A DNA stretch of 20,073 nt, from positions 1-20,073 of IMG/VR virus record IMGVR_UViG_3300025646_000506, one strand, 5' to 3'. The notes below the pieces were generated by a model, which was not told the DNA's origin, made no database searches, and worked only from the letters and a program-made list of their open reading frames with translations. Position numbers and translations under genes: made by a program. Position 1 is the stretch's first letter. Every line of letters starts with the position of its first letter. Origin of the DNA: a virus. Below are positions 1,931 through 16,900 of this stretch, in pieces.

Positions 1931-3568
1931 ATGGGAAAAAAGAACGGAAACTCTTTCGGTTCTTTTAATTCATTTGTTAAATCAAAAAGTACTGAACCTA
2001 AGGGCATAACTCCAATTAGGACTGAGTTTTCTAAAGGCTCAGTTCCTGATTCAATTTATACTTCCAATAGAGAATCAGCCTGGTCGCGTTGGAGGAGAGG
2101 TTTTGAAATTTATTCAAATAGTTCTATAGGGCAAGTCTATAGTTATCCGTTTGATTATATTGTTCCTGTAGGCACTGTTCCAACTACTGGCCAACAACCA
2201 AGAATACCAGGTGTTTTTCAAGGTTTTCCAACTAAAAACAAAGAACTTGGCATGCATTGGGCCGGTGTAAGACTAGGCGGAAGTTTACGTTTAGATAACA
2301 TTAATGATGGCTTAGGAACTAAAGCATCAATATTATCAGTAACAGAAGACGAAGATTATTGGTATGTTAAATTAGCAGGAAACTGGAGTATTTTTAATCC
2401 TTTACCAGCCCCTTTATATGTTTTCACGGGACCTGGTAGACCACCCCTTTATCCAATGAATGGTGAAATATTTGAAACCAGAATAGTTGTTGATGGTGGT
2501 GCTCCAATTACTTCAGAAACAATTGATCCAACAACACAAAAAAGATATGGGTATATTCAAGCTGTTGTTGTAGAAACACAAGAAGCCACTGGAATAATTA
2601 AATTACAAAAACAAGGTTCAGTTGAATCAACCACGGACGCTGTTTTTGTCACACCAGCAAGAACAAGTCCTCAACTAGGTCGATTCATGATGACTGGGAC
2701 AAGATATTGTTGTTCATGTCAAGACTTTACAAGAAGAGATTATGCTTATATTTCCCAACTTGGAAGCACAAGCAATAATAAAATTTTTCCACGTACCAAA
2801 GCATCAACCGTAAAACCAGGTCGTTTTGAAAGAATGTATAAAGGTGAAGTTGTTACTGGTGTTGGCCCTATACCTACGGTGCGCCCACAACTAGATCGTT
2901 TTGGAAATCCAATTCCTGATGATCGAGCAATGTCAAAAGGAACTGAAGATAGAGCAATGGAAGTGGTTGCTCCATCTGCTGAATACGAAATACCACCTCA
3001 GGTTACTCCAACCAGTGATACACAACGAGGTGCGTTAAGAGATCGCCCTGGCATGTTTAGAGATTTTGGTGGTGTATACACAAGAAGTACTCCTTTACCT
3101 TCTATTGAAGGTGCAAAGTCAGAAGGTATGCCCAGCTATAACGATTATGACAGTTCAAGAAATCCAGATGGATCTTATAACATAACTTCAATTACAGACT
3201 TTTGGACTCCTTTATTGGATGAAATTCGATATTGCAAACATATATATGCAATGAAATTTGCTGAAAAAGTATTTCCACCAGAGCCATCAGATTTTCCGGT
3301 TGGAACAGCAGAAGGTTTAACAGAATGGGAGCAAAAGCTGGTAGAACAAACTAATAAAGATAATCAAAAAGCTGAATATGAAATTGCAAAAAATGGTTTA
3401 TCTAAAATGGATGTACCACCTTATAACTGTGGTGCTCCAATGATGATGCCAATGGCACAGAAACTATTTAATATACCAAGTGACTTTGTTCAAATGTCGA
3501 GCTTTAGAATGTATGATAAAAATGGTAAAGAATACACTCCATATGAAGGTGGAAGACCTGGAACATAA
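1931..3568 (+). CDS. Large probable virion protein, family not recognised
   Basis: A 545-aa protein starting at an ATG two bases after the preceding stop. The N-terminal 30 residues are Ser/Lys/Phe-rich and look disordered. Residues about 60-250 are rich in aromatic residues, Pro and Gly (YSYPFDYIVPVGT, PLYVFTGPGRPPLYP) and probably beta. A cysteine cluster RYCCSCQDFTRRDYAYI (Cys260, 261, 263) is unusual for a phage structural protein, with further cysteines later (YCKHIYA, YNCGAPMMMPMA). A Pro/Arg-rich linker precedes the C-terminal part. There is no enzymatic motif. The stop overlaps the next ATG (TAATG). Position among virion genes suggests a tail or connector part. The cysteines could bind metal or form disulphides in the particle; that is inference. 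Confidence 0.6.
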   Translation: MGKKNGNSFGSFNSFVKSKSTEPKGITPIRTEFSKGSVPDSIYTSNRESAWSRWRRGFEIYSNSSIGQVYSYPFDYIVPVGTVPTTGQQPRIPGVFQGFPTKNKELGMHWAGVRLGGSLRLDNINDGLGTKASILSVTEDEDYWYVKLAGNWSIFNPLPAPLYVFTGPGRPPLYPMNGEIFETRIVVDGGAPITSETIDPTTQKRYGYIQAVVVETQEATGIIKLQKQGSVESTTDAVFVTPARTSPQLGRFMMTGTRYCCSCQDFTRRDYAYISQLGSTSNNKIFPRTKASTVKPGRFERMYKGEVVTGVGPIPTVRPQLDRFGNPIPDDRAMSKGTEDRAMEVVAPSAEYEIPPQVTPTSDTQRGALRDRPGMFRDFGGVYTRSTPLPSIEGAKSEGMPSYNDYDSSRNPDGSYNITSITDFWTPLLDEIRYCKHIYAMKFAEKVFPPEPSDFPVGTAEGLTEWEQKLVEQTNKDNQKAEYEIAKNGLSKMDVPPYNCGAPMMMPMAQKLFNIPSDFVQMSSFRMYDKNGKEYTPYEGGRPGT

Positions 3569-3780
3569 TGGCTGACTTTGGTGATATTGTTGATGGTGTT
3601 TTTGTTCTTTCAGAAGAACAAATTAATATTCGTAAATACGGATTTAGTACTATTAAAGCCAGTGGTACGCCAACTGTATACCACGCTGGTGATGTTGTTA
3701 ATTTACCTTATGAGAGCGGTGAAACATCAACCATAGAGGCTGTAGGAGCCTGTTGGGCAGCCTTTGCGAGTGGAGTTTAA
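3568..3780 (+). CDS. Small hypothetical protein, translationally coupled
   Basis: A 70-aa protein whose ATG overlaps the stop of the 545-aa gene. It is acidic at the N-terminus (MADFGDIVDGVFVLSEEQ) and ends with AVGACWAAFASGV. It has no transmembrane helix of convincing length and no recognised motif. As the last gene of the first virion block, before a 108-base gap and the integrase-like module, it is probably a minor structural or assembly protein. Its compact Val/Gly/Thr-rich composition suits a small beta domain. Confidence 0.65.
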   Translation: MADFGDIVDGVFVLSEEQINIRKYGFSTIKASGTPTVYHAGDVVNLPYESGETSTIEAVGACWAAFASGV

Positions 3781-3888
3781 TTAATTAGTGTATACTAATA
3801 ATAAGCTCAGATACCAAAGCAATACTAATGGTTCTGTGGCGATGGTTTGACCAGTGTATACAGTATGGTTAATACCGATTAAAGACCT
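3781..3888 (+). promoter_or_regulatory. Intergenic spacer with repeated AGTGTATAC elements
   Basis: This is one of the longer non-coding gaps. AGTGTATAC occurs twice, near 3787 and near 3853, each resembling a -10 (TATACT, TATACA). The first lies in an imperfect palindrome TTAGTGTATACTAA. This could be the promoter/operator for the integrase-like gene, or an attachment or binding region for the nearby HTH protein. No tRNA-like 3' end, as many phage att sites carry, is visible. The only ATG-led frame inside is a 14-codon one that I do not support as a gene. Confidence 0.3.
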
Positions 3889-4344
3889 ATGGAACTTACA
3901 CCTCCTACCGATCAACGAATTGTAAATGATTATTTTAAACTGCTTTCTTTTAGTAAATTAAAAAATGTTGCATGGCTTTATGGCATGATTGCCACTTATG
4001 GCGTTAAACCAGATAAGCTATGGGACTTTAAATGGGGTCCTGATAATAGTATTTTTATCAAAAATAAAAAACGTCCTATTTACCCACTGCATCCACAGTG
4101 GGTAATTTTATTTAATTTAAAAGAAAAACGACCCCAAAGATTATGGGGCCGTATTAAAACATTGTGTTATAACTTATATCAAGAAATGGCTAATCAGCGA
4201 ATTGAGTTAAACATTACAGATTTATTATTGGCTTATAAAATAAGAAAACAATATTACCTTAATACTACGCAGCAATCATTTCGTCATCCACAGAAGCAGC
4301 TTGAAAATGAATCTGCTTTTGTAAATGTTTCTGGACGGCGTTGA
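3889..4344 (+). CDS. Truncated, degenerate tyrosine-recombinase (integrase)-like protein
   Basis: A 151-aa protein. Residues 4-75 resemble the start of the catalytic domain of cyanobacterial/cyanophage integrases: PTDQRIVNDYF, then WLYGMIATYGVKPDKLWDF (box I region), then IKNKKRPIYPLHPQWV (the beta-hairpin with the conserved Lys, and the P-L-x-P-x-W-V motif). The core-binding N-terminal domain is absent, and an in-frame stop at 3880-3882 rules out a longer start. The box I arginine appears to be Lys40. The box II H/Y-x-L-R region reads TDLLLAYKIR, so its catalytic Arg is gone. No box III or tyrosine nucleophile motif is seen. Its 3' end overlaps the convergent HTH gene by 80 bases. It is either a decayed integrase or a protein reused for DNA binding. 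The family call is by eye. Confidence 0.55.
   Translation: MELTPPTDQRIVNDYFKLLSFSKLKNVAWLYGMIATYGVKPDKLWDFKWGPDNSIFIKNKKRPIYPLHPQWVILFNLKEKRPQRLWGRIKTLCYNLYQEMANQRIELNITDLLLAYKIRKQYYLNTTQQSFRHPQKQLENESAFVNVSGRR
4080..4105. other. Strong hairpin with T-rich flank inside the integrase-like gene
   Basis: TTACCCACTG (4080-4089) and CAGTGGGTAA (4096-4105) form a perfect 10-bp stem with a 6-base loop, CATCCA. On the plus strand it is followed by TTTTATTTAATTT, which gives the look of an intrinsic terminator although it lies within the reading frame. A second, weaker stem (CCCC/GGGG) follows at about 4131-4148. It could attenuate transcription passing from the first virion block, or simply be chance within coding sequence. 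Confidence 0.4.
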
Positions 4345-4519
4345 CGTTCCAGTAATAGCTGTCCCGCGACCAGGTTTTCCCAGGAAATGCTGTAAAATGG
4401 GTACCAAGCTTAAGGGTGCCATTGTCACGAAAACGGAAAAGAGTCTTGCGGTCTAAGCCAAGCATCTCCTCTGCTTTGTTGATTGAAACCCATCCGGTTG
4501 AGTCAGATGTTTTTGCCAT
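4265..4519 (-). CDS. Excisionase-like helix-turn-helix DNA-binding protein
   Basis: An 84-aa protein on the opposite strand, convergent with and overlapping the integrase-like gene. Residues 9-36 (GWVSINKAEEMLGLDRKTLF followed by RFRDNGTLK) form a MerR/Xis-type winged HTH, and the following GTHFTAF and YYWNVNAVQKHL segments fit the pattern of small cyanobacterial/cyanophage HTH proteins that accompany integrases. It probably binds DNA to direct recombination or repress transcription. Pairing with an integrase-like gene supports a recombination directionality factor, but because the integrase looks dead a purely regulatory role is equally possible. A similar domain arrangement occurs in the 135-aa protein at 13779-14186. 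Confidence 0.65.
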   Translation of the reverse strand: MAKTSDSTGWVSINKAEEMLGLDRKTLFRFRDNGTLKLGTHFTAFPGKTWSRDSYYWNVNAVQKHLQKQIHFQAASVDDEMIAA

Positions 4520-4642
4520 GGAAGAATTTGGCTTGCATATTTAAAGTACATAGAAAAACAAACTTATTAATGGTTTTAATAAACATTTCTTATTTTTATA
4601 CGAATTTAGGAATCTTAAAATAAAGTAACCGCAACTGAAGAG
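4520..4642. promoter_or_regulatory. Divergent intergenic region between HTH and HNH genes
   Basis: This 123-base AT-rich gap separates the leftward HTH gene from the rightward HNH gene and must supply promoters for one or both. An inverted repeat TTATTAA-tggtt-TTAATAA lies at 4564-4582 and could be an operator for the HTH protein or a weak hairpin. Possible -10 sequences are TTATAC near 4597 on the plus strand and an AT-rich TTTAAATAT on the minus strand. GAAGAG immediately before the ATG at 4643 lies too close to be a good ribosome binding site. No gene is seen. Confidence 0.35.
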
Positions 4643-5020
4643 ATGTTCAATGACGAGAAGGAACCCCTCTCCCTGCTCATTGAAGTCACTCCTCGGTTAG
4701 CAAAAAAACGATATCGACAATCAATTTACGAAGCTTGGGACTACCGCTGTGGTTACTGTAATAAACCAGCGACATCATTGGATCATATTGTACCTAGATT
4801 TAAATCCGGTTCAAGTAATAGAAATAATTTGTTACCTTCTTGTCAACGTTGTAACAGCAATAAAGGCAGCACAGATATGGAAACCTGGTATAAACAACAA
4901 ACATATTTTTGTTTAGAAAAACTAGAAAGAATCAAAGCCTGGACAGAGCTTGAATATATTTGTTGTGAACTTCCAATTTATAATATAAATACATTATCAC
5001 CAGATCCAGAAGCTGCGTAA
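4643..5020 (+). CDS. HNH endonuclease
   Basis: A 125-aa protein with a clear zinc-binding HNH domain: CGYC (Cys36, Cys39), LDHIVPR (Asp47-His48 with the metal/base residues), RNNLLPSCQRCNSNKG (Asn62, Cys67, Cys70, Asn71, Lys74). HNH enzymes cut DNA through a beta-beta-alpha-metal fold. The C-terminal part (YKQQTYFCLEKLERIKAW) is typical of small free-standing cyanobacterial and cyanophage HNH proteins. It sits between the integrase/HTH pair and a large virion gene. It lies far from any packaging gene seen here, so a homing or mobility role is more likely than DNA packaging. Its stop is four bases before the next ATG. All motif residues appear intact, so activity is plausible. Confidence 0.85.
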   Translation: MFNDEKEPLSLLIEVTPRLAKKRYRQSIYEAWDYRCGYCNKPATSLDHIVPRFKSGSSNRNNLLPSCQRCNSNKGSTDMETWYKQQTYFCLEKLERIKAWTELEYICCELPIYNINTLSPDPEAA

Positions 5021-5024
5021 ATAA

Positions 5025-8000
5025 ATGACAGGTCCTATTATTATTTTTGCTCCAGGGATGACAGCAGGGATTCCTGTGCAAAATATTCCCAATGTATCTG
5101 TTCAGCCAACAATTTCACAAGGAGGTACTTTAACAACTGAACAAGCTATAGAACAAGGTTTAAAAGAATTAGAGCAACAAAATGCACAAACACAAAATGT
5201 TGATTTAAATTCACAAGTTGCTATAACCGCAGAAAATCAATACACAGGAATTGATACTCCAACTGAAAATTTTTATCCAACATCTACAGGAACACAAGGA
5301 ACAACTTTAGATAATCAAGAAACAGAATATCCAACAGCTTTTATTAGGTTTCAAAAAAATGCACAGTATCCTGTTACTTTAGCTAATGGCGCTGTAGTTA
5401 ATGTACCTTTAGTTGCTACTAATACTCCTGCAGTACATCCAGGGCAAGCACCTGTTGCACCTGTTGCTGCTGACTATACAGTAAAAGCTTATCTGCCCAC
5501 AAACAATCAAGTAAAAGACGGAGGTATTCAATACACTCAAAGGGGAGGTAGTATACCAGGGGGTAATAGAGAAATTGGTGCTGCATATTCTAATGGAACA
5601 TACTATGGTCCTCAGGGTCCTAGCGACAAAGCAACAGCTGTTAATACTAATTTAGCTTCTTCAGCTAAGTCAGCTAAAACGGATTTTGATAAAGCAGACA
5701 AAGCATATAACACAGCAAAAGGAACATATGACGCAGCCCTTGCAGATTACAATATAAAAGTTAAAATTCAACAAGGTGTTGATGCTGTAGCACAAGCAGC
5801 TGCTCAAGCAGTTTTAGATAAAAATGATAGTGGATTTAGCGGAAACTATACAGTTCATCGAGATAATTTATTAAATGCATTACAAACAGCAGGCATTAGT
5901 GATCCAAGAGGTTTAGAAAATGCTTTTAGAGAGTTCTATATATCTGCTGATTTAACTCCACCAGAAACTTCAAAAGAACTTTATCAAGAAACGCCTTATG
6001 AAAGACTGGGAGATGAAAGAGATAAATTTAATAGTGATTACTATGGAGATCAAGAAGCGTTTCAAAATTTAGAAAACGGACCAAAACAACAATGGCAACA
6101 AATTGTCAACACAGATGATGTTGACATGTTGTATTTATACGGAGTAGAAGATACAACTCAAAGAGCAGCTAATCCTAGCGAAAAATATAATCCAACTAAT
6201 TTTTATCGTAATGATTACAGGATTAGATCTAACGCCGGAGAAAATGTTAGAGGAAATCCTGTATACAACATTTTAGAGTATGGGCAAAAAAATGAACTAG
6301 GTGAGTTTGTTAAACCAGCTCAGATGGAAGGAAAAGGAATTGATTTTGTAACAGATAGCGATATACAAAATGCAAGAAACCTTTCCTTGGGTGTGGGTCA
6401 AAACGATGAAGAAAATTTAATAAAAGAACTTTTAAATAGAGAAGGTCAAGTTTATGATCAATTAAGAAATCAATTTAATTTAGCTACCAGTGGAACTGAT
6501 GAAAATTGGAATGCGTTAAGAGATCAATATACATGGGAGGATGGTATTCCTCTTTATGAATTAAATGCCGATAAACCTGTTCATTTTTTAAATTTACTTC
6601 GTTTAGCATCTTTAGATTCTGAAAGTCAATTAGGACAAACAACAAGACAAATATTAAATGATTTAAAAACAGAAGATGAAACTTTAGAAAATGAGTTAAG
6701 AACAACAGATGCAGAAGAAATAATTAACACTTTTATTAGTGACGAAAGTAGAAAAGAAATTAGAAAATTTGGCGCATTAACAGAAGATGCTTTGTCAAAA
6801 ACATTAGAAGAAATACAAAGACAAAGAGCAGAAGAAACTAATTTAGCCTTTTTAAAAGGCTTTGGTAGCTTTAATGAAGTTTTTAATGCTGCTTCTACAA
6901 TTACTGACTCACTGTTAAATGACACAGGACTAGGAGGTTTACTTCCTTTAACCAGTAGCAATGCATCTAAATACAGAACAGATTTAGAAAAGAATGTTAA
7001 AGAGCTAGTTGGAATTAATAACAGCGTTACATACAACTGGGAAGATTGGTTTGAAAATAATTTATCTAGAAATTACAATGCTCAGTATTATCTTGATAAT
7101 ATTGATCAATTTGAACCGCTAGAAAAAGGTAAAGAAATTTTAGAAGCTTATACAAAAACAAAAAATTTATATCCACTTTTTGACATGTATTCTAAAGAAG
7201 AAGTGGAAACAACTGATCCAGAAACTGGTGAGACAAGTATAGAAACAATCGGAACTTATGATGAAAGATTTTTAAAAGAAGCTGGTTTTGAAAGTACAGA
7301 AGAATTAAATAATTATTTACAAACTCAATCTGATGACGATGGTTCTTATTTCAATGAAATAAAAGAACTTATTCAAAATGTTGAACAAGATTCAAGAGTA
7401 GTTGCAGATAATTTAAAAAAAGTTGAAGAATTAATTCAAATACATAACGATGATATTGATGAACTAGATAAAGTTTTACAGGAAGAATCAGGCGAAGATG
7501 CTTTTGTTGTAACTATTAATAATGAAGAACAAACAATTAATGGTAGGTTTTTGCGTTCATTTTTAGAAGATTATTTAAAACCAAGATTCGATACTTCTCG
7601 ATCTATGGATGAGTTTGTTGAATATATGGATGTAAGACAAAAAGAAAAAAATCCATTTCAAACAGAAGATTTTGCAAGCGCAATTAGAGATGCTGGTAGA
7701 GCTGCTTCAGAAAAATATCTAAAAGAAGTAATTAATCCAACGTTAGGCAAGGAAAGATCATTTGATTATGAATATTATATGAATCCTATTGACACAATAA
7801 AAAAAAGAGGATCTAGTGCTATTGATGTCAATAACCCTCCTGAAAAATATTTAAATCAAGCGGAAATTGTTACTAGAGATTGGGAAGAAGCAAAGCTTAA
7901 TCCTAATCAATTAGTAAATAAAAACGCTCCAGGAGAACCAGACTATGGCACCTGGGCACAACAAGCGTATCGATACGGGTATGATCTTAATAATCCTGAA

Positions 8001-13778: not shown

Positions 13779-14186
13779 TTAAATTTCAGTTGGATGAGAA
13801 GTTTTATATAAAGGTTTTTGTTTATAAAAATCTTCAGGTTCAATTTTTTTATTTTTTATAAAAGATTGAATTAACTGGTTCCAGGGGATTCTAATAATTG
13901 CTTTACGCCCACTGTCGGGAACAATATTGATATAATGAATACCTTCTTTCCAACCATTGTCTGGTTTGTTTTTCCCTATTGCTATCCAATTTCTAATTGT
14001 TTGATCAGATACATTTAACCTACGACCACATTCTTCTGTTGAAATATATTCATCAGCATAAGCGTCTGGACACAAAGAAGATGAATTTTTATCAGGATGC
14101 TTGTCATACCACATAGAATTAAGGACGTTTTTTATTCCTCTTAATTCGTGTACGACATCTTTCATGACTTTATAAAATCCATTCAT
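13779..14186 (-). CDS. Helix-turn-helix regulator, excisionase/MerR-like
   Basis: A 135-aa protein. An N-terminal basic/amphipathic helix (residues 1-25) is followed by a linker and then a HTH at about 46-72: DEYISTEECGRRLNVSDQTI followed by RNWIAIGKN. A wing-like GWKEGIHYINIVPDSG and IIRIPWNQLIQSF follow. This is the layout of MerR/Xis-type small DNA-binding proteins and parallels the 84-aa protein at 4265-4519. As first gene of the leftward operon, facing a 50-base divergent region, it probably controls its own operon and/or the late fibre unit. Whether it is a repressor, activator or directionality factor cannot be decided. Confidence 0.7.
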   Translation of the reverse strand: MNGFYKVMKDVVHELRGIKNVLNSMWYDKHPDKNSSSLCPDAYADEYISTEECGRRLNVSDQTIRNWIAIGKNKPDNGWKEGIHYINIVPDSGRKAIIRIPWNQLIQSFIKNKKIEPEDFYKQKPLYKTSHPTEI

Positions 14187-14611: not shown

Positions 14612-16900
14612 GTGGCAGATAGAAAGATTTCGGAATTATCAGCAATTGCCGGTGCAGATATTGCAGATGGCGATTTATATACTGTTGTTGATGTTTCCGA
14701 AGTAGATCCTGGGTTAAAAAATAGAAAATTTACTTTTCTATCTTCTCGGGAATATTATAATGTTTATTATCTACAGTTAACAGGCGGCACGATTGCTGGT
14801 AGTTTAACTGTAGATAATGATCTTTCTATTGGTGGAACTTTTGCGCCGTTAAACGTTAATATATCAGGCACTGGAACATTTAACCAATTAATTTGCACCG
14901 GCACTGGAGAGTTTAGAAATTTACTGAGTGGCAATACAATTACTGGTTCTGATTTAAGAGGTACCAACGCTAATATTACAACTGGAAATATCACACAAAT
15001 TATCTGTACCACAATTACTGGAACATCTGCAGGTTTTAATGTTGTTACAGGTGGTACCGTAACAGGATCTACAGGTAAATTCACAGAAATTACAGGTCAA
15101 AAATTCATTGGTTCAAGTGGTTTATTCAATACTGTTAGCGGCGCCATCATTACTGGCGCACAAATTAACACAACTGGTACGTTATCTGGTACAACTATTA
15201 CAGGTGAAACCGGTAAGTTTACAAACTTTACAGCAACAAATATTACTGGAACAACAATTACTGGAACAACAGGTAAGTTTTCAAATATTAGTGGAACCAA
15301 TATTACAGGTAACACAATTACAGGAATAACAATAAAAGGTGCAACAATTACAGGAACTACTGGAACGTTTATTTCTTTAACTGGCACCAGTATTACTGGG
15401 CAGACAGGTAAATTTATTAATTTTAGTGGAACAACTGGTAATTTTGTTTCTTTAACAAGTCAATTTATTACAGGTTCTACGCAAATATCTGGATTAACAA
15501 TTAAAGGTTCAACAGGAAATTTTAATGAAATTACAGGTGAAACAGGAATATTTACCACAAAATTAAGTGGAAAAACAATTACTGGCAATACAGGTTTATT
15601 TTCTACACAGCAAGCAGTTTCAGGAGTTTTTACCACTAGAGTAAGTGGTCAAACAATTACTGGTATTACTGGACAATTTACTTCTTTAACAGCTTTAACA
15701 GGTACTTTTACAGATCAAGTAAATATTCCTAGTATTTCAACAACTGGTAATGTTGAAATTGGTGGGAATTTAACGCTTACAGGCACGGGATTTTTCCAAC
15801 AAAATATAAACGTTTCAGGTCGCGTAAGTGGTGTTACCATTTCAGGTATTACAGGTACTTTCGGTGATATCACTGCAAATACTATTACTGGTTCGACTTT
15901 AATAACAGGTGAAAATATTAATGCAAATAATATTACTGGCACCACAATTACCGGAGTTACAGGTAAATTTACATCATTAACAGGAACAAGTATTACTGGT
16001 GTAACTATTACAGGTGAAACAGGTAAATTTTCAAACCTTACAAGTACAAATATAACCGGAACCACAATTACTGGAACAACTGGTAACTTTCAAATTGTTA
16101 CTGTTTCAGGATTAAACGCCACAACAAAAATTTCTGGCGTCACTATTACAGGTCAAACTGGACAGTTTACAGTAGCAACTATTAGTAGTTTTACAGCTAC
16201 TTCTATTACAGGGACCACAATTACTGGTACTACTGGTAACTTTGCATTTATTACAGCAGGTTCAATTACAGGCACCACAATTACTGGAACAACTGTAAAA
16301 GGTACCACTATTACAGGTACAACAGGTTTATTTGATAATTTAACTGGTAACACGATTGGCTTTTCAACTCTTAATGTTGAAACAGGTAATTTTACAACTG
16401 TAAGTGGTACATCGGGTACTTTTACAGATACCCTATCTGGCGAAAATATTGTTGGTCAAGATTTAACGGTAAGCAGAATTACAGGTACTACTAGGGTTGT
16501 TACTGATTTATTAAGCGGCACCACTATTACTGGTAGCACAGGCAGCATTCATTTTATTTCAGGCTCTACTGGCATTTTTACAGATCGAATTTCTGGAGAT
16601 TATATTACTGGTGGCACTTTAATTGAATCAGTAACAGTTACCGCTATAACGGGTAACTTTACTGTTGCTAACTTTGTCACCACATCAACAGGTAATATTC
16701 TTTCCAGTGGTTATATTTCAGGCGCCTCTGGATTAAGAACAGATAGGAATGTTAGAGGTGCAATGCTTGAAACAAAAGCTGTGTATGATATTGACCAAAC
16801 TGTTGAAAGTGGTTACAACGCTTTATCTATTACACCTTTAGAAATAGCAACCGGAGTTACTGTTACAGTACCTACCGGTTCAACTTGGTTGACATTATAA
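14612..16900 (+). CDS. Repetitive tail fibre protein
   Basis: A 762-aa fibre. The N-terminal MADRKISELSAIAGADIADG...LYTVVDVSE is the particle-attachment signature of many cyanophage fibres. The bulk (about 80-690) is a long run of T-G-T-x-I-T-G-x-T-G-x-F-like units (such as TGTTITGTTGKFSNISGTNI) made almost only of Thr, Gly, Ile, Ser, Asn, Phe and Val, which probably form a trimeric triple-beta fibre. The end (TVESGYNALSITPLEIATGV, VTVPTGSTWLTL) is a compact C-terminal cap also typical of marine phage fibres. There is no S74 chaperone. The GTG at 14612 is preferred because a nearby ATG at 14605 is out of frame and soon stops. The gene is 40 bases before the second fibre and shares its repeat style. 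Repeats probably vary in number by recombination. Confidence 0.85.
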   Translation: MADRKISELSAIAGADIADGDLYTVVDVSEVDPGLKNRKFTFLSSREYYNVYYLQLTGGTIAGSLTVDNDLSIGGTFAPLNVNISGTGTFNQLICTGTGEFRNLLSGNTITGSDLRGTNANITTGNITQIICTTITGTSAGFNVVTGGTVTGSTGKFTEITGQKFIGSSGLFNTVSGAIITGAQINTTGTLSGTTITGETGKFTNFTATNITGTTITGTTGKFSNISGTNITGNTITGITIKGATITGTTGTFISLTGTSITGQTGKFINFSGTTGNFVSLTSQFITGSTQISGLTIKGSTGNFNEITGETGIFTTKLSGKTITGNTGLFSTQQAVSGVFTTRVSGQTITGITGQFTSLTALTGTFTDQVNIPSISTTGNVEIGGNLTLTGTGFFQQNINVSGRVSGVTISGITGTFGDITANTITGSTLITGENINANNITGTTITGVTGKFTSLTGTSITGVTITGETGKFSNLTSTNITGTTITGTTGNFQIVTVSGLNATTKISGVTITGQTGQFTVATISSFTATSITGTTITGTTGNFAFITAGSITGTTITGTTVKGTTITGTTGLFDNLTGNTIGFSTLNVETGNFTTVSGTSGTFTDTLSGENIVGQDLTVSRITGTTRVVTDLLSGTTITGSTGSIHFISGSTGIFTDRISGDYITGGTLIESVTVTAITGNFTVANFVTTSTGNILSSGYISGASGLRTDRNVRGAMLETKAVYDIDQTVESGYNALSITPLEIATGVTVTVPTGSTWLTL

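Follow-up and report, generated by a model that had tools for sequence, protein, structure and literature searches.

What does a gene that resembles an integrase, yet seems unable to recombine DNA, do among the virion genes of a cyanophage? The question is raised by the virus record IMGVR_UViG_3300025646_000506, of which 20,073 bases were analysed (the window). Gene order comparison showed that the window is arranged like the late region of an isolate, Synechococcus phage S-EIVl. The upstream run of virion genes ends with a 70-aa gene (3568..3780, plus strand) that is kept in S-EIVl and absent from some relatives. It is followed by a leader (3781..3888, plus) and by a gene encoding a truncated tyrosine recombinase catalytic domain of 151 aa (3889..4344, plus), which we call DTR, for dead tyrosine recombinase. 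Convergent with DTR is a single-copy gene for an 84-aa HTH protein (4265..4519, minus); according to the ORF coordinates, the two genes overlap tail to tail by 80 nt. A divergent intergenic region (4520..4642) separates the HTH gene from a gene for a 125-aa HNH endonuclease (4643..5020, plus; Pfam PF01844), and the interval is bordered on the HNH side by a 1264-aa gene (from 5025). A first-pass annotation of this DNA had placed three genes at 3781-5020, with DTR and HTH tail to tail, and the ORF positions agree with it. It had also described them as a module lodged in the virion block, a description that does not suit the HTH and HNH genes, which are near-universal at this site across the family.

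DTR is a homologue of cyanobacterial integrases and is predicted to be catalytically dead

Searched alone, the 151-aa protein had no useful match in Pfam, PHROGs or NCBIfam, and none to PF00589. The family profile found nothing useful among the sequences of solved structures, and tblastn found no match in named phages; in viral contigs, tblastn gave 303 confirmed matches. We aligned 32 relatives (alignment A1), surveyed the catalytic residues of 84 distinct relatives, and used for comparison three full-length cyanobacterial chromosomal integrases (Nostoc CMAA1605, Aliterella and Gloeocapsopsis; L099-L101), which were retrieved from the genome collection by profile. The DTR family profile aligned with the full-length cyanobacterial integrases (hhalign 98.8%, E 6.6e-17) and matched the three proteins with hmmsearch E-values down to 4e-12 (Z=100000). 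In the reverse search, an integrase profile run over 21 long records matched DTR in every DTR-positive record and gave zero matches in the 4 DTR-negative ones. The homology covers DTR residues 7-123, with 35% identity in the profile alignment, the same predicted fold, and the shared motifs ATYGxRPxEL and PLHPQW. The integrase of cyanophage PSS2 is related to these chromosomal integrases as well. The AlphaFold model of DTR (mean pLDDT 85.7) had as its top 26 entries in VIA-align only catalytic domains of tyrosine recombinases or telomere resolvases, and while their Z of 6.1-8.7 may reflect a common arrangement, the gap to the next, unrelated entries (Z 3.4) and the sequence evidence agree on a recombinase. 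Foldseek alone gave only E of about 0.1-1. The recombinase-like scaffold proposed from the letters is thus borne out by both profile and structure comparison.

The cyanobacterial integrases, about 480 aa long, possess an N-terminal region and the complete set of catalytic residues, whereas DTR consists of a truncated catalytic domain alone. The N-terminal core-binding domain is missing, and the match begins at DTR residue 5-7, which lines up with residues around 256-262 in the Nostoc integrase (486 aa). Arg I is replaced by K, N, T, Q or S in 83 of the 84 relatives (the sole Arg I is in L073), the box II Arg position is occupied by L, I, M, V or T, and box III and the nucleophilic Tyr are missing in all 84. 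The loss of the N-terminal domain and of the catalytic Arg, His/Arg and Tyr, first noticed in the window, therefore extends through the family with the exception of that one Arg I. The family is basic, with a median pI of 9.7. Together with the selection analysis below, these results give good support to DTR being a homologue of the cyanobacterial tyrosine recombinase catalytic domain that has lost catalysis and is a selected domain.

DTR is under purifying selection and is patchily distributed

Nearly all of the 84 distinct relatives are about 140 aa long, and no frame damage was seen across the family core. Pooled dN/dS was 0.16 for codons 1-60, 0.22 for codons 61-92 and 0.11 for codons 93-123, and 0.60 for the tail that overlaps HTH; the medians for the neighbours were 0.15 (HTH) and 0.175 (HNH). 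The dN/dS check proposed in the first-pass annotation thus indicated purifying selection outside the overlap. Because the lowest value falls beyond both of the terminators described below, the full-length DTR protein is under selection.

Among 71 loci readable through the interval, DTR was present in 61 and absent from 10, and all ten DTR-negative loci retained both HTH and HNH. On the tree of the 545-aa neighbour (p545), these absences need 5 changes, at least 4 of them on well-supported branches, and alignments showed sister pairs with and without DTR among those changes. DTR therefore appears to have been lost or exchanged several times. Its position is constant across the relatives examined, it is single copy in long records, and 84 of 84 checked loci from the DTR-profile or HTH scans, a similarity-ranked set biased toward near kin, also carry HTH and HNH. 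The comparison with related genomes that the annotation had called for did find sites free of DTR; the pattern it had set against its own insertion idea, ordinary genes fixed without variation, fits HTH and HNH and fails for DTR. A search for att-like flanking repeats found none, just one chance-like 12-nt repeat pair in the region. A search of 20 long viral relatives and S-EIVl, a set in which most records may be incomplete, yielded no other integrase. The absence of PF00589 was too weak to be used alone as proof, because cyanobacterial integrases themselves fall under the PF00589 cut-off, and the search was redone with the integrase profile. Taken from sequence comparisons, DTR appears to be an accessory yet selected protein in S-EIV1-like, virulent-looking cyanophages. 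S-EIVl itself (KJ410740) shares with the window the virion gene order, a 74-aa gene, and the minus-strand HTH gene and the HNH gene in the corresponding place, but lacks DTR and the sense terminator. No publications on the DTR family were found in the collection of papers searched.

The interval is also a plastic spot. In L079 (6252-7337), a psbA-like gene (photosystem II D1, assigned by eye from the translation) follows the 70-aa gene and replaces HTH and HNH. One clade (L039, L040, L041 and L050) has an extra 183-aa ORF, located at 7991-8542 in L040, within a spacer of 855 nt between the 70-aa gene and DTR. In L077 and L078, some 4.7 kb past the 545-aa gene, several genes that look fibre-like by eye separate it from the 70-aa gene; other long ORFs occupy the interval in L038 and L064. 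At 14612-16900, the window encodes a long protein with ITGTTITG-type repeats, which is probably a tail fibre. Two contigs of the DTR phage family come from bacterial MAGs (L097 and L098, one labelled Aliivibrio) and look misbinned.

Two predicted terminators face each other within DTR

A terminator scan of positions 3400-5200 found exactly two sites, both within the DTR coding sequence and facing each other. The sense intrinsic terminator (4080..4105, plus, with a T-rich tail to about 4113) is formed by the codons for PLHPQWV (-15.5 kcal/mol, z -6.2), and the antisense one (4128..4152, minus, with a T tract at 4118-4127) by the codons for KEKRPQRLWGR (-15.8 kcal/mol, z -5.5); both hairpins fold far better than shuffles. 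The antisense terminator, nearly always located at DTR codons 77-81, was below -10 kcal/mol in 84 of 84 DTR genes compared with 18% of synonymous shuffles that preserved the protein and the codon pool. In 24 distinct sequences with the standard layout, its stem showed two-sided changes at 9 of 11 pairs, 97% of cells pair, and compensatory cells numbered 44, compared with 10.8 for shuffled and no more than 13 for slid controls; these shuffle and covariation counts overstate independence, since the family members are related. The sense terminator at PLHPQW passed -8 kcal/mol in 81% of genes, a few of which have it elsewhere in DTR, compared with 22% of shuffles, and within its stem the choice of Leu codon was associated with that of Gln codon (Fisher p 0.0006, uncorrected for relatedness). 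Covariation was thus strong for the antisense terminator and limited for the sense terminator. None of the three cyanobacterial host integrases contained hairpins of the DTR type.

The two terminators also differed in their distribution. In DTR-positive loci, the antisense terminator was found in 57 of 57, about 144 nt past HTH, and the sense terminator, which is weaker and whose motif has amino acids common to host integrases, was found in 49, being lacking in 8. In DTR-negative loci, the antisense terminator was present 33-58 nt past HTH in 9 of 10 and the sense terminator in 0 of 10; no HTH terminator was found in the short spacer of S-EIVl. That the antisense hairpin is a selected structure is well supported by these comparisons, and it is where the HTH transcript is predicted to have its 3' end. 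As it is present with or without the surrounding DTR gene, the HTH message seems to need it. Bacterial overlapping convergent units and excludon-like arrangements, as set out in one report (PMC7154746), resemble this locus in that the messages of neighbours overlap. They differ from it in that here both terminators are located mid-ORF and the antisense one covaries under a protein code.

The HTH and HNH neighbours and their relation to DTR

The HTH gene is present as annotated, but its excisionase likeness has weak support: matches to PHROG excisionase families had E-values of 0.009-0.06. HTH_17 was matched in 21 of 27 HTH members (best 7e-4), with the window member below the cut-off, and the HTH model had a pLDDT of 69. 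No active integrase that HTH could direct was found in 21 records, most of which may be incomplete. A second small HTH-type gene, of 135 aa by eye, is located in a minus-strand block of the window (13779-14186, minus).

Pairwise distances of the non-overlapping cores were correlated at 0.68 between DTR and HTH, compared with 0.45 for DTR-HNH, 0.48 for HTH-HNH, 0.31 for DTR-p545 and 0.37 for HTH-p545, and the partial DTR-HTH correlation given p545 was 0.64. The bootstrap interval for the excess of DTR-HTH over HTH-HNH was 0.00 to 0.40, touching zero, so a tighter co-inheritance of DTR with HTH than with other genes is only suggested, and the correlation could stem from the physical overlap alone. 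No clear change in HTH was seen when DTR is absent, in an HTH tree too short to say. HTH does not need DTR, because it persists without it.

The HNH gene is intact as proposed (PF01844, 38.3 bits against a cut-off of 21.4). As a neighbour it is fixed whether or not a genome has DTR, and its presence in DTR-negative genomes argues against the earlier suggestion that HNH was the agent of spread.

Leaders and candidate promoters

DTR has a conserved leader of its own. In the alignment of 38 leaders, a near-palindrome centred on GTATAC (3787-3800 in the window) is followed in most by a small hairpin, either GTCTCACGAGAC or a variant of it; the variants differ on both sides and look compensated. 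This leader element is a possible promoter, operator or 5' RNA structure; the palindrome is not a motif repeated elsewhere in the window. In the alignment of 47 HTH/HNH spacers, most relatives have a conserved pair of TTGACA and TACGGTAT-like elements facing HTH, which is poorly kept in the window, and a conserved leader lies ahead of HNH. This promoter-like pair and the HNH leader indicate that transcription of HTH and HNH probably begins in the shared spacer and diverges from it.

Proposed working of the locus and alternative explanations

We lean towards the reading that DTR is a domesticated dead recombinase that acts with HTH as a DNA-binding partner or regulator, in a gene that doubles as a transcription insulator. 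The sense terminator would halt transcripts of the upstream virion genes inside DTR, before HTH and HNH, and the antisense terminator would end the HTH message, so that the locus would keep upstream and downstream transcription units apart and may also set their timing. The DTR protein probably either partners HTH in binding DNA or regulates it, a role that we rank first, ahead of the inhibition of other recombinases, and the two proteins may jointly act as DNA-binding regulators of the region. The annotation had offered, as its second option, a dead recombinase kept as a DNA-binding regulator paired with HTH. Purifying selection, the basic charge of DTR and its correlation with HTH fit this option; the retention of the protein stands, while the grounds for DNA binding are the fold and the basic charge. 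The loss of the core-binding domain counts against binding, as recombinases owe much of their hold on DNA to that domain.

Since selection on DTR is strongest past the sense terminator, polymerase must at times pass that point, and on the favoured reading DTR translation or some other read-through would be needed for it to do so and give full-length DTR. Translation would be the simplest gate, because a ribosome close behind the polymerase prevents the hairpins of intrinsic terminators (PMC5021804). A more specific version, tentative and rather doubtful, is a switch, in which DTR and the convergent HTH gene form one co-inherited unit whose mid-ORF convergent terminators are gated by the translation of DTR. 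If this were true, a protein code and a termination code would be held together by selection.

Alternatively, DTR could inhibit, as a decoy or dominant-negative protein, an active tyrosine recombinase present in the infected cell, be it a host integrase or one from a resident prophage or a satellite, by preventing its assembly or blocking its site. Such a role would account for an accessory, often-lost gene in phages seemingly without their own integrase: absence of DTR is patchy, the long records gave no integrase of their own, and the sequence relatives of DTR are full-length cyanobacterial chromosomal integrases. A precedent is Odn of ICP1, a satellite-derived domain turned against satellites, which resembles DTR as a mobile-element enzyme domain retained by a phage and differs in being an active nuclease, while DTR is predicted to be inactive (PMC10448857). 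We regard inhibition as unlikely, as the co-inheritance of DTR with HTH and the design of the locus favour a local partner. Recombinases join one another through the C-terminal segment and the N-terminal domain, and DTR has neither. It is quite improbable that the locus is mainly a DNA or RNA element, that is, a bidirectional terminator insulating the virion genes from HTH and HNH, with a DTR protein that matters little or no longer matters. The terminators are conserved, the antisense one covaries, and the HTH terminator is kept where DTR is lost, but selection on the protein is needed to explain the near-constant ORF length and the dN/dS of 0.11-0.16 to either side of the terminators.

The two explanations that rest on mobility fare worse. 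That HTH, DTR and HNH form a homing cassette driven by HNH would suit the plastic interval, in which psbA-like or fibre genes occur instead in some relatives, the distances of the three genes, which agree poorly with those of the 545-aa neighbour, and the frequent location of nuclease genes at phage exchange boundaries (PMC10448857). We consider it more improbable again, as all DTR-negative loci, S-EIVl included, have HNH and HTH, and the readable loci included no empty site that lacked HNH in an otherwise unchanged layout. Least credible is the option, entertained in the annotation, that DTR is left over from a lysogeny or satellite insertion and is decaying: it lacks the catalytic residues, the N-terminal domain and the C-terminus, and some genomes have no DTR, but the loss is identical in all members, the family core is free of frame damage, length is near-constant, selection is purifying and the position fixed, att-like repeats were not found, and HTH and HNH occur without DTR.

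Under the reading we favour, that of a domesticated recombinase domain, DTR represents an unannotated protein family of a cyanophage lineage and, as far as sequence and predicted structure tell, a clear example of how a recombinase fold can be maintained without catalysis, with two predicted terminators facing each other and nested in a selected coding sequence. For phage genomes, it cautions that the annotation of a degenerate integrase need not imply decayed lysogeny.
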